Shown here piece by piece: positions 7,332 through 38,019 of a stretch of DNA of 64,000 nucleotides. The position numbers and the translations under genes were made by a program. Source of the DNA: Hanleya hanleyi (lineage: Eukaryota > Mollusca > Polyplacophora > Lepidopleurida > Hanleyidae); contig JAVTVY010037020.1 of the NCBI GenBank assembly GCA_036873755.1, positions 1-64,000 of the forward strand, written 5' to 3'. The stretch's first letter is position 1, and each line of letters opens with the position of its first letter. Below the pieces are notes generated by a model. That model was not told the DNA's origin, ran no database searches, and was given only the letters and a program-made list of their open reading frames with translations.

Positions 7332-8545
7332 ACTTCCCTTACAAACCAATAAGCTGGGGAATTTGTGGGGTTTATGTCGGGCAAGCTGTGTAGGGATCAT
7401 GTGGGGAATGTGTAGGACAGCCAATGTGGGGACTGTCTAGGGATTTGGTAAAATCCCCACATTGGACTTAATCATGGAAAAGGAGTTTCTTAATGCTGCT
7501 TAGCTGAATTAAATCCCCGCACTATCCCAACCTCAGCCCCACATGTTCCCCACATGTGGGGATGATGTGGGGAACTATATTTAAAGCTGGTATGGTATAG
7601 ACCCACAATATTCCTGCAGTAAGTCCAGCATGGTACAGAAAACCCCACAATATCCCCACGTGGGGAATCTGCGGGGCAGAAAACCCCACAATATCCCCAT
7701 GTGGGGAATCTGCGGGGCAGTAATTCCAGCATGGGACAGAAAACCCCACAATATCCCGACGTGGAGAATCTGCGGGGCAGAAAACCCCACAACATCCCCA
7801 CGTGGGGAATCTGTGGGGCAGTAATTCCAGCATGGGAGAGAAAATCCGACAACATCCCCAGGTGGGGAATCTGCGGGGCACTAATTCCAATATGGGAGAG
7901 AAAACCCCACAATATCCCCACGTGGGGAATATACGGGGCAGAAAACCCCATAACATCCCCACGTGGGGAATCTGCGGGACAGTAATCTCAGCATGGGAGA
8001 GACAACCCCACCATATCCCCACGTGAGGGATCTGCGGGGGCAGAAAACCCCACAATATCCCCACGTGGGGAATCTGTGGGGCAGTAATTCCAGCATGGGA
8101 GAGAAAACCCCACAAGATCCAGACGTGGGTAATCTGCGGGGCAGAAAACCCCACAACATCCCCACGTGGGGAATCTGCGGGGCAGTAATTCCAGCATGGG
8201 AGAGAAAACCAACCATATCCCCAGGTGGGGAATCTGCGGGGCAGTAATTCCAATATGGGAGAGAAAACCACACAATATCCCCACGTGGGAAATCTGCGGG
8301 GCAGAAAACCCCACAACATCCCCACGTGGGGCATCTGCGGGGCAGTAATTCCAGCATGGGAGAGACAACCCCACAATATCCCCATGTGGGGAATCTGCGG
8401 GGCAGAAAACCCCACAATATCCCCACGTGGGGAATCTGCGGGGCAGTAATTCCAGAATGGGAGAGAAAACCCCACAATATCCCCACGTGGGGAATCTGCG
8501 GGGCAGTAATTCCAATATGGGGCAGAAAACCTCACAAAGAGGTAT
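7332..8545. repeat. Higher-order minisatellite of 41- and 60-bp units
   Basis: From about 7640 to 8545 the DNA alternates a 41-bp unit (GGGAATCTGCGGGGCAGAAA then CCCCACAATATCCCCACGTG) and a 60-bp unit that carries an extra GTAATTCCAGCATGGGAGAG. Successive CACGTG-type cores lie at roughly 7656, 7697, 7757, 7798, 7858, 7918, 7959, 8019, 8061, 8120, 8161, 8221, 8280, 8321, 8381, 8422 and 8482. Each unit joins its neighbour through the 12-bp palindrome CCCCACGTGGGG. Related but non-periodic words (GTGGGG, CCCCAC) occupy 7340-7620. The unit lacks stop codons in most frames, so long repetitive open frames appear on both strands; these are by-products. Confidence 0.95.
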
Positions 8546-9689: not shown

Positions 9690-10800
9690 CTTGGAAATAT
9701 AGATCAAGGTCAGTCATCTTCAAAAAATTTCAAGTCAATTCTAATCGCATAGGGAACATGAATTTGGATATCTTAAACTTAACATATAGAATTTGACCTT
9801 TCAAAAGTAGGTCAAGGTCAGTGATATTCTTCATTAATCTTCAGGTCCAGCCATAAGTGATATAAATTTATACAATGTAGATATAATCTTTCATAGAATA
9901 TTGTACTAAATAGAATCTGATTTTGATGAAATAGGTCAAGGATAAAATAGGTCAAGGTCAGCCATCTTCAGCATACCTTTGGAGCATCACCAGATGTACA
10001 CATGGCATTAATTTGAAAAGCCTAGCTATATTCTTCATGTTAGACCATAATAAACAGTATATGACCTATACAAAATAGGTCAAGGTCAGTCAACTGGGAT
10101 AGGCTTCTAGTCAGTCACGAGTTACCGGAGTAATATGAATTTGGAGACCCCAGCTTCAATCCTTCCAAAATTATAGCAAATACTAAAATTTGACCTTGAT
10201 AAAACAGGTCAAGGTCAGTCATCTTCAGTACATCTCTGGTCCTTCACCAGGTGTATACATAGTATCAAATCGGAAACCCTGGATATATTTCTTCATGTTA
10301 GACCAAAATAAACCGTATTATGACCTTGAAAAAATAGGTCAAGGTCAGTCAACTGGGATAGGCGTCTAGCCAATCACCAGTTACATAAGTAATATAAATT
10401 TGGAGACCCTAGCTTCAATCCTTAAAAAAATATAGCAAATACTATAATTTGACCTTGATAAAATAGGTCAAGGTCAGTTATCTTAAGTACACCTCTGGAC
10501 CTTCGCCAGATGTATACATAGTATTGATTCGGATAGCCTAGCTTTATTTTTTCATATTATATCACAATAAACAGTATATACCTATAAAAAATAGGTCAAG
10601 GTCAGTCAACTGGAATAGACTTCTAGTCAATCAGGAGTTGCATATATAATATGAATTTGGGGACCCTAGCTTCAATCCTATCAAAAATATAGCAAATACT
10701 AGAATTTGACCTTGATAAATAGGTCAAGGTCAGCCATTTTTAATAGGCTTCTGACCCTTCACCCAATACATATGTGGTATCAATTCACAATGCCTGGCTA
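9690..10800. repeat. 129-bp tandem array carrying TCAAGGTCA in every unit
   Basis: TCAAGGTCA begins at 9704, 9812, 9952, 10080, 10209, 10339, 10468, 10596 and 10724, a steady 128-130 bp spacing after the first two. Alternate units differ (CATCTTCAGTA type against CAACTGGGATAGG type), giving a ~258-bp higher-order repeat. Many units also carry TGACCTTGATAAAATA just before the site, making an inverted pair. Confidence 0.9.
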
Positions 10801-21570: not shown

Positions 21571-22129
21571 ACAAGAGTTGTCTCCCCTGATGTGTTGGAC
21601 TCACCTGTTAATGCAGGAATTCAGGTGTGACCCTGAACAAACAATTTGGATACTGTTTACCCAAAAATACATGGCCTGAACATTTCTCCATGACCCTACA
21701 CCTCTGTCTCTGATTATTAACAAAGCTGACTTCTGCACTCAGGTGTGCAATATTGTGACAACTTGACTGATGACATAAGTGGCTTATGTCACTGGTGAAT
21801 TCTTCTAAATTTATATTATGATGCAAAATAAATTTCAAACGATGAACGTGAATTATTCTCCATGTTTTCTTTCCAAAAGGCTGGATATTAATCACTCCAT
21901 AATGGGGTGGCTGCTTCTTCTGCACCCCAGTCCACAGTAAACATGCTCCATTCGAGCCTAATTGGCTATTATAATTAATTTTTTCGAAATATTTTGCTCT
22001 CCACGTGGTATACAACTCAGCCATCTTTATCACTAAACTATGAAATTGACATCAGTGAGAGATTGTCATCCAGCCTCCTAGTATGACTTACCTGAACCGG
22101 TGACATATGTATTCTGTGTTTACGCTTTT

Positions 22130-31739: not shown

Positions 31740-32950
31740 CGGTTAAAAGCATGATGCATTTGGGGAAATATTCATCTAATACTCAAGCGTCTAATCTGCC
31801 ATTCAGTCGTGGCCCATTAAAGAGAATGTCCGCATCCAAAAATCCATATAACAGCATTAGCACCAAATTCAAAGAAAAACATAGTATACAGTTTTCAATG
31901 CTACTGGCAAGACCTCGCAATGTTTCAAAAATATCAAATCCGTTTCGCTGATCAATATTCTTAATCCATATGATTTTCGTTGTAAAGGCGTTCTAGAGAA
32001 CGATGTATCTCGTTCACGCTTTGATTGTGGCTTCATATGAACACCATCAGGATCTTGTGCAGGAGTTCATACGGCCATTAACCCCAGGTTATTTATTTGA
32101 CTGTTTATTTGAGAAACTTTGAGTGAAGGCGCTTGGTGGTATTGCCCGGTTTTGTAAGTTTCTGAAATAATTATTGTGACGTGGATTCAAATCGAAACAT
32201 TTTACACAGGATCTTGCGAATATTGCTACTAGTCGAGATATGTATATGTCATATGTTGGCCCCACTGCAATATTATTGTCTAGAAAGGGACAGTTTATGT
32301 TGCCGAAATTGTAATGATCTCTCTTGTCATAAAGTTGACGAGAGAGAAGGCCCTCTCCATTTTCATAGAGCTTTAGGTCTATATATGTGCCGTTTGGGCT
32401 ATCTGTAGTTTCCTCCAAATCCAGTGAGGATGGATATATATCCTTCACTGCGTTATTTATATAGCGATTATCCACATCGTGAAGATCGTCTATATAACGT
32501 TTGGTGAATGAGAAGAGACTGGCTTTGAAATGATCGTTTTTTTAATGCATATAGTCGTATTCATAAGAGAACAGATACAAAAGGGTGTACAATTAGTACC
32601 CATTGGAATATCTATATGTTGTTGATATATTGTATTGCCAAATTTCACATAGATATTATTGATGAGAAATTCAAGCAGTTCTGTAAACAAAGAGACATTC
32701 CATGAATGATATTCCTTGTATGTAGTAGAGTTAAAGAAAAGCTTTATGGCTTCTGATATTAATATATCGGTGATCAGTTTTCTTGAACACCGATACCATT
32801 TATGAGCTAAGACGGTCAATAAGATCCTGATGAGGGATTGTAGTATAGAGAGTCGAAAAATCCTATGTGGATACATGTCTGCCTGGTATGTGTCCTTCCC
32901 ATCAAGCTCTTCAGTAAAACATTTTGAGTTTTCAATATATGAATACAATC
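31740..32950 (-). pseudogene. Decayed reverse-transcriptase retroelement (copy B)
   Basis: On the minus strand, 32948-32490 encodes the RT finger-palm region ending in QQHIDIPMGTNCTP (IPMGTNC at about 32609-32589). Then 32475-32089 encodes the stretch after the palm: SSLDLEETTDS, then YIDLKLYENGEG, QLYDKRDHYNF and YISRLVAIFARSC. The expected YxDD catalytic box between the two fragments is lost to frameshift. The 3' end (31740-31990) carries the terminal motif shared with copies at 3830, 4395, 42030 and 45955. The IPMGTNC...LYDKRD...NFP...YISQL architecture is found in abundant invertebrate retroelements; I cannot assign the clade with certainty (Penelope-like or non-LTR). Confidence 0.7.
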
Positions 32951-37268: not shown

Positions 37269-37433
37269 GTAGATATTACAATACAATTAAATTATAATTT
37301 ATCCCTGAAGATGACTGAAATTATTAGTCGAAACATTGTATCTTCGAATATATATATCCAAAATTCACTTGTTATCCCGGCGATATGCCGTGTACTTGTG
37401 AAATGGATTGAATTAGCGAGCTGTTCCCAACTG

Positions 37434-37505
37434 GACTCGGTAGCTCAGTTGGTAGAGCAGTGGGACGGTATCCCCTAAGTCGTGAGTTCGATTCTCACCC
37501 GAGCC
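37434..37505 (+). repeat. tRNA-like segment, unit 1
   Basis: Acceptor arms GACTCGG/CCGAGCC pair with one A-C mismatch; D arm GCTC...GAGC; T arm GTGAG-TTCGATT-CTCAC. Box A TAGCTCAGTTGG is consensus and box B AGTTCGATTCT nearly so. The anticodon arm pairs poorly and lacks U33, so it is a Pol III promoter domain, not a working tRNA. Confidence 0.75.
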
Positions 37506-37528
37506 AGTATTTTCTGGCAGGGTGTTTC

Positions 37529-37598
37529 ACAATGTAGGAATATAATTAAATTATAATTTATCCCTGAAGATGACTGAAATTATTAGTCGAAACATTGT
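37529..37598 (+). ncRNA. Hammerhead self-cleaving ribozyme (type III topology)
   Basis: All core parts are present in order. Stem III 5' strand ACAATGT (37529-37535); cleavage nucleotide A37536 in a GUA triplet; stem I GGA (37537-37539) with TCC (37561-37563), an internal loop, then TATAAT-TAA-ATTATA; core CTGAAGA (37564-37570); one extra U (37571); stem II GACT (37572-37575) with AGTC (37585-37588); core GAAA (37589-37592); stem III 3' strand ACATTGT (37592-37598), 7 perfect pairs including A15.1-U16.1. The predicted cut is between 37536 and 37537. The extra base between A9 and stem II departs from consensus, but an extra base there is known in the chrysanthemum chlorotic mottle viroid hammerhead. 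Activity is untested. Confidence 0.75.
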
Positions 37599-37692
37599 AT
37601 CTTCGAATATATATATCCAAAATTCACTTGTTATCCCGGCGATATGCCGTGTACTTGTGAAATGGATTGAATTAGCGAGCTGTTCCCAACTG

Positions 37693-37764
37693 GACTCGGT
37701 AGCTCAGTTGGTAGAGCAGTGGGACGGTATCCCCTAAGTCGTGAGTTCGATTCTCACCCGAGCC
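37693..37764 (+). repeat. tRNA-like segment, unit 2
   Basis: Identical to 37434-37505, shifted by 259 bp, with the same box A and box B. Confidence 0.75.
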
Positions 37765-38019
37765 AGTATTTTCTGGCAGGGTGTTTCACAATGTAGGAAT
37801 ATAATTAAATTGTAGATATTACACCCCTTCTATTCTGAACACTATTTTCCCTCGGCTTTGTAACGCTTACTGCCGCATATGATTTCATATGTACACTTAA
37901 CATAGAAAAATGATAATTGTTTTTGTCTGTGTTTTGTATTTTGGTAATTTGTTGACATATTTATTATTTCATTTGCATCATTACTTTTATACACTTTTAC
38001 ATTACGGTAATATGACACT

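Follow-up and report, generated by a model that had tools for sequence, protein, structure and literature searches.

Here we show that a 531-bp insertion in the window, the whole stretch of 64,000 nucleotides of Hanleya hanleyi DNA that was analysed, is a copy of a real, repeatedly inserted, ribozyme-bearing retroelement. It is a non-LTR retrozyme, but not a standard member of that class, since its hammerhead is not of type I. Our preferred reading, to which we give a probability of about three in four, is that each 259-nt unit of this non-autonomous family joins a type III hammerhead to a tRNA-like segment and that the family is mobilised by machinery of the Penelope-like element (PLE) type. 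An earlier note on this DNA had described a dimeric, hammerhead-bearing, retrozyme-like SINE within a target-site duplication (TSD). Its reading is upheld in part: the element is non-coding, occurs in many copies across the genome, bears a hammerhead and was inserted with a TSD.

The window insertion and its hammerhead

The two tandem 259-bp units that the earlier note placed within one 12-bp TSD are confirmed, with a total length of 2 x 259 + 13 bp. The word GTAGATATTACA is common to both flanks over 12 bp, or 14 bp if the preceding TT is counted. Unit positions are numbered from the first base past the predicted cut (u1 = 37537; u259 = 37795). The features are listed below, together with the two clusters at which copies of the family have their 3' ends.

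37269..37280, no strand: left TSD copy, GTAGATATTACA
37281..37811, plus strand: whole insertion, 531 bp, inside the 12-bp TSD
37281..37536, plus strand: unit 1, u4-u259
37434..37506, plus strand: tRNA-like segment of unit 1 (Rfam RF00005, 49.3 bits)
37510..37513 and again 37769-37772, plus strand: TTTT behind the tRNA-like segment (u233-236), possible Pol III terminator
37529..37598, plus strand: type III hammerhead over the unit junction
37529-37535 / 37592-37598, plus strand: stem III strands
37536, plus strand: H17 (A37536), predicted cut 37536/37537
37537..37795, plus strand: unit 2, complete, u1-u259
37537-37563, plus strand: stem I
37547..37558, plus strand: family 3'-end cluster 1 (u11-22), around the stem I loop
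37564-37570, plus strand: CUGAAGA
37571, plus strand: extra U between A9 and stem II
37572-37588, plus strand: stem II
37575..37589, plus strand: family 3'-end cluster 2 (u39-53), around the stem II loop
37589-37592, plus strand: GAAA
37693..37765, plus strand: tRNA-like segment of unit 2 (Rfam RF00005, 49.3 bits)
37796..37811, plus strand: start of a third unit, u1-u16, without the ribozyme core
37812..37823, no strand: right TSD copy, again GTAGATATTACA

Base 37280, just 5' of unit 1, agrees with u3 as well. Compared at a period of 259, units 1 and 2 differ at a single position (37284 C, 37543 T), and the insertion has its own 3' end at about u16. The window copy represents the simple direct tandem form of the element.

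The complete hammerhead proposed for the unit junction is indeed present, with all core residues and three stems. In order, the motif consists of a stem III strand, GUA, the stem I hairpin, CUGAAGA, a U, the stem II hairpin, GAAA and the second stem III strand. Stem III (ACAAUGU/ACAUUGU) has 7 bp counting U16.1-A15.1 and is followed by the cleavage triplet GUA; stem I pairs GGA with UCC and continues into a distal helix; stem II (GACU/AGUC) can be extended to 6 bp. The motif thus has the CUGANGA, GAAA and NUH elements and the three stems of a type III hammerhead, with stem III open and one additional U. A viroid hammerhead with an extra nucleotide after A9, reportedly described by De la Pena and Flores in 2001, would provide a precedent. 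The extra U at 37571, the type III topology and the restriction to one complete hammerhead are three features absent from the earlier note. The last of these arises at the second junction (37795/37796), which is followed by just 16 nt of unit, so the window copy alone would be unable to release a 259-nt monomer.

A structural descriptor, drafted after the motif was seen and with limits at or below the motif's own, matched once in the window, both strands being searched, and not at all in 20 Mb (one strand) of random sequence generated to the window's trinucleotide composition. The search with Rfam covariance models for which the earlier note had called went the other way, no hammerhead family matching the window element at E<=10. 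The fold of the 259-nt unit is more stable than those of all 200 shuffled sequences (z = -3.98), and when the unit is folded as a circle (z = -3.7) 63% of its bases are paired. The free fold retains the stem II and stem III helices, shifts the register of stem I, and presents both the stem I and the stem II hairpin loops as AAUUA. Because of competing helices, pair probabilities in free folding are about 0.3-0.5 for stem III and 0.1-0.2 for inner stem I.

Several other features of the window were recorded. A second tandem repeat, at 9941-10737, likewise repeats every 259 bp (sub-period 129 bp) and matches the retrozyme unit over short stretches only; a tandem array at 7616-8537 is built of 41-bp and about 60-bp units with higher-order periods of 101 and 161 bp. 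On the minus strand, 32089-32948 holds reverse transcriptase-like fragments that match no Pfam family above its cut-off, with a YIDD-like motif that we take to be a reverse transcriptase motif. A PDB search with the first open reading frame of this region found nothing below E=0.08, and its nine homologues are all without names. Also on the minus strand, an open reading frame at 21608-22051 has the zinc-binding loop of His-Me homing endonucleases (PF05551, 2.2e-08).

Genomic copies and the positions of their ends

The source genome comprises 2.48 Gb in 52,793 contigs. In a DNA search with the element, 40 of the 1713 first-look candidates were scored and gave at least 124 matches, and a 35-letter ribozyme pattern allowing up to 3 mismatches was found at 554 places (places rather than insertions; the reversed control gave 0). 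We parsed 85 site representatives, 25 obtained through two DNA searches and 60 through region requests, and dropped 9 for shared flanks. This left 76 distinct insertions. Similarity score had picked 24 of these, with a bias to long arrays; the other 52, drawn from the listed places of the 554, were chosen because their u28-62 pattern is intact. Left out of the parsing were L061, loci that overlap another locus at its own site, and L004 and L010, which share their site with L002; the arrays of L106 and L112 reach the edge of the fetched stretch, where their ends are not real. The genome-wide search that the earlier note had suggested thus finds dispersed copies, with arm pieces of up to 5.56 units. 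Together with the short hammerhead unit, its tandem arrangement and a TSD-like word at 39 of 74 insertions, this dispersal places the family among the non-LTR retrozymes.

Three sets of loci are of separate note. L061 (G000:C17293:24700-32300) is a 3.3-kb stretch holding one retrozyme unit and tandemly repeated at 99% identity; the repeat begins inside the unit at u24, and the stretch includes a DUF3987 match that falls short of the curated cut-off. It was considered as an autonomous partner and rejected, since what is duplicated in tandem is neighbouring DNA with the unit inside it. A fragment spanning u1-u79, which begins at the predicted cut, recurs with shared flanks on seven contigs (L065, L072, L086, L105, L107, L110 and L118); it is probably an old insertion that was duplicated along with the adjoining DNA, and was counted once. 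L002, L004 and L010, on three contigs, apparently occupy one insertion site with different unit numbers, and appear to be alleles or assembly variants.

The commonest form of insertion, seen in 53 of 76, is head-to-head, a minus arm followed by a plus arm with both 3' ends facing outward; a further 13 have a minus arm only and 10 a plus arm only. Inner joins, examined at 18 loci, show filler or small overlaps. A flank word of at least 9 bp is common to both sides in 39 of the 74 insertions that have both flanks (two of the 76 lack one), and 28 of the 39 words are 11-13 bp long, while the other 35 insertions share no such word; a control that combined the left flank of one insertion with the right flank of another gave a mean of 0.94 and a maximum of 4 in 100 trials. 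By form, such words occur in 31 of 53 inverted, 3 of 13 minus-only and 5 of 8 plus-only insertions. The TSD letters are mildly AT-rich, at 70% A+T against 63% in the flanks (34 words of at least 10 bp).

The outer (3') ends fall into two clusters about 30 nt apart, with 37 of 129 in u11-22 (6.0 expected) and 44 of 129 in u39-53 (7.5 expected), although BLAST may extend an outer end by a few bases where the target happens to match. No A-rich tail is found at the copy ends inspected. Read from end positions and inverted arms, the family shows the two adjacent internal 3' start sites and the priming of both strands that would mark a PLE-mobilised element. The inverted arms of other copies and the two PLE-like 3'-end sites are absent from the earlier note.

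The inner (5') ends are concentrated at the predicted cleavage site. Ends at u1-5 number 22 of 129 (2.5 expected if even), the maximum for any 5-nt window of the unit; as the pattern sample favours inner ends in u1-28, it is relevant that 22 of the 51 ends within that interval still lie at u1-5 (P=2.5e-5). The minus arm of L085 is misaligned, and without it the count is 21 of 50 (P=6e-5). At the clearest junctions GGAATAT or GAATATA comes right after foreign bases (7 at u1, 5/6 at u2). A reverse transcriptase stop at the exit of stem I from structure alone seems unlikely; the simplest explanation is that the RNA had its physical 5' end at the predicted cut. The peak, which may be a genomic footprint of cleavage in vivo at this bond, supports such cleavage indirectly.

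Template, constraint and the tRNA-like segment

Units of the same insertion tend to share their variants. Across 24 insertions, 73 variant sites are common to all or most units of an insertion, compared with a mean of 24.9 and a maximum of 42 in 300 label shuffles. The two arms agree only in part: of the variants fixed in plus arms at sites covered by the minus arm, 26 of 63 are identical in the minus arm; later mutation would add to the between-arm differences. At the haplotype sites u13, u100, u101, u114 and u119, 17 of 24 testable insertions (L055 lying outside the test) are uniform, five deviate in a single unit or arm at one site (L006, L018, L023, L024 and L030), and two are mixed (L012 and L021). 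The sampling was biased towards arms that cross a junction, which 121 of 144 arm pieces do. Shared variants, long arms and junction crossing fit a circle or a homogeneous multimer.

If a self-cleaved and ligated 259-nt RNA circle were copied one or more times around, a template that has been proposed for animal retrozymes, the length of the arms, the shared variants and the mostly uniform haplotypes would follow readily, and circles have been measured for other animal retrozymes (PMC7229834). However, 17 of the 94 pieces that start in a cluster and cross a junction (including the misaligned L085) end at u1-5 past an earlier junction, which on a circle is the very bond already passed, and exact whole rounds number 6 of 94 with 3.3 expected, no clear excess. 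We regard the circle as a tentative reading, somewhat short of even odds. In some of the insertions the stops past a junction favour a linear RNA whose 5' junction had been cut and whose next one was intact, and a linear multimer trimmed by the ribozyme fits at least as well as a circle. The suggestion that integration drew on a circular or multimeric RNA agrees with the shared unit variants, but its circular version is weakened by the position of the stops and by the whole rounds.

Changes that every unit of an insertion carries (template-level, counted as distinct) were compared with those confined to one unit (private, arising after insertion, all counted). In the 24 score-selected insertions the template:private ratio is 1:56 for ribozyme core and stems and 19:180 for the comparison positions (P=0.054), and 2:123 for the tRNA-like segment (P=0.0044). 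In all 76, with ascertained positions left out, the ribozyme has 2:107 against 37:493 in less constrained parts (P=0.046). The tRNA-like segment has 10:400 against the same 37:493 (P=0.0014), a contrast that may be exaggerated should this stretch decay more quickly once inserted. Both template-level ribozyme changes, C to U at 11.1 (giving G-U) and A to U at H17, are permitted by the motif. A count of three out of three permitted changes (P=0.007) was rejected as biased, the L078 change sitting on an N of the pattern by which the sample was chosen. The earlier note had held that copies with uncompensated disruption of core or stems would speak against the ribozyme; single genomic copies do carry broken cores, but no such disruption is seen at the template level.

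Each unit contains a tRNA-like segment, and ARAGORN calls at least one tRNA in 21 of the 25 loci given to it. The words at 37441-37452 and 37484-37494 we take, by consensus, to be box A-like and box B-like. The segment might drive Pol III transcription of the unit, as its two box-like words and its slower change at the template level would suggest, although we hold the balance of sequence evidence to lie slightly against this. The TTTT that directly follows is intact in 156 of 171 units, so that a Pol III transcript must read through it to include the ribozyme, which argues against efficient full-length Pol III transcription; moreover, one founder-level change falls at u214, presumably the conserved A of box B. 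Any role for the segment, the promoter role foreseen by the earlier note included, is suggested only because of the slower template-level change, and promoter, structural and recognition functions are all possible. An exact pattern scan of viral contigs gave 0 matches, and in a blastn search against phages all 20 listed of 1430 records match the tRNA-like part.

Relation to known elements and mobilisation

Animal retrozymes are described with type I hammerheads in tandem units without LTRs, expressed as circles (PMC7229834). The window family resembles these metazoan non-LTR retrozymes (Cervera and de la Pena 2020, PMC7229834) in its small, low-GC tandem hammerhead units, in its dimers and longer arrays, in TSDs of more than 4 bp and in its highly paired RNA. 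It differs in its type III hammerhead and tRNA-like segment, and in its inverted arms and two internal 3'-end sites, which the accessible part of that paper does not describe. Schistosome repeats unite a hammerhead and a tRNA in one unit (PMC4918200), so that the SINE-retrozyme combination raised in the earlier note has a precedent. The schistosome SMalpha/hammerhead repeats are SINE-like with both parts in each unit, a likeness of description, and unlike the window family have a type I hammerhead (PMC4918200, PMC8490949). Plant LTR retrozymes share the type III hammerhead and dimeric arrangement, but have LTRs, PBS/PPT, a 4-bp TSD and larger units (PMC4918200). Type III hammerheads occur in plant LTR retrozymes, viroid-like RNAs and some HDV-like animal RNAs, as well as in bacterial and phage DNA and in one atypical mammalian motif (PMC7761336, PMC6155905). 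Helenus TRIMs likewise have a tRNA-like sequence within a repeated terminal part, but are LTR elements with PBS/PPT and 4-5 bp TSDs (PMC10886601). A literature search pairing hammerhead ribozymes with tRNA-derived SINEs returned a genetic-code match only, and insertion ends of the present kind are unreported in the accessible parts of PMC4918200, PMC7229834, PMC7761336 and PMC6155905; most subscription papers were outside the scope of both.

The closest parallel to the copy ends is provided by PLEs. In vitro, a PLE cleaves and extends both target strands, with AT-rich targets; its synthesis starts internally at two neighbouring sites, which match the genomic 'tail' of 30-40 bp (PMC11167929). 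Rotifer PLEs have inverted terminal parts, mostly head-to-head, with a 31-bp tail (PMC3846280). The window family shares the extension of both strands, the two adjacent internal starts and the inverted head-to-head parts (PMC11167929, PMC3846280). PLEs differ in being autonomous and in having minimal type I-like hammerheads (PMC11167929, PMC3846280), whereas the 259-bp unit is too short to encode a PLE-type enzyme; the TSD-like words of the family, mostly 11-13 bp (28/39), are longer than the 8-10 bp of the rotifer examples given (PMC3846280), and their AT-richness is only mild beside the AT-rich PLE targets. In the single PLE tested in vitro the hammerhead was dispensable, and no RNA reads ended at the cut site (PMC11167929). 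PLEs have been named a strong candidate for the driver of retrozymes (PMC7229834), and retrozyme repeats show no conserved motif from which a driver could be deduced (PMC7761336).

Other modes of origin were weighed against the same evidence. L1 twin priming yields inversions, and a tRNA-derived SINE mobilised by a LINE in this manner would account for the tRNA-like segment, the TSD-like flanks and the filler or small overlaps at inner joins. We nevertheless consider it unlikely, because the copy ends inspected lack an A-rich tail, and because the clustering of outer ends at two internal positions and the predominance of the inverted form fit a PLE better. An LTR or TRIM insertion, with its 4-5 bp TSD, was rejected on the length of the TSD-like words and the inverted arms. 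A common satellite, or a tandem duplication in which a hammerhead-like motif arose by chance, would agree with the silence of Rfam, but is very improbable: we rejected a plain satellite on the TSD-like flanks and a chance motif on the lack of descriptor matches in 20 Mb of random sequence, and the copies are dispersed with 5' ends at the predicted bond.

From the copy ends we infer that a PLE-type enzyme moves this retrozyme family. In the mechanism that we favour, transcripts of at least two units would be cut by the hammerhead between u259 and u1, and RNAs keeping at least one uncut or religated junction would serve as templates. A putative PLE-type endonuclease/reverse transcriptase would cut the target with a stagger of about 12 bp, whereupon synthesis would start from either or both DNA 3' ends within the hammerhead, close to the stem I and stem II loops. 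The cDNAs would pass a junction and then either break off at various points or reach the cut 5' end of the template, and their joining in mid-insertion would give head-to-head inverted arms or, as in the window, a direct tandem. The ribozyme could on this basis be the integration signal of a PLE parasite, with a ribozyme-trimmed linear multimer rather than a circle as the direct template, a proposal that we put forward tentatively and at a little under even odds.

The element would put a type III hammerhead in a non-LTR retrozyme. The most valuable part of the finding is the copy ends, which lie outside the coordinates covered by the earlier note: since they combine a PLE-like signature with a putative cleavage footprint, they make both the mobilising machinery of the family and the form of the RNA that it copies testable from genome sequence.
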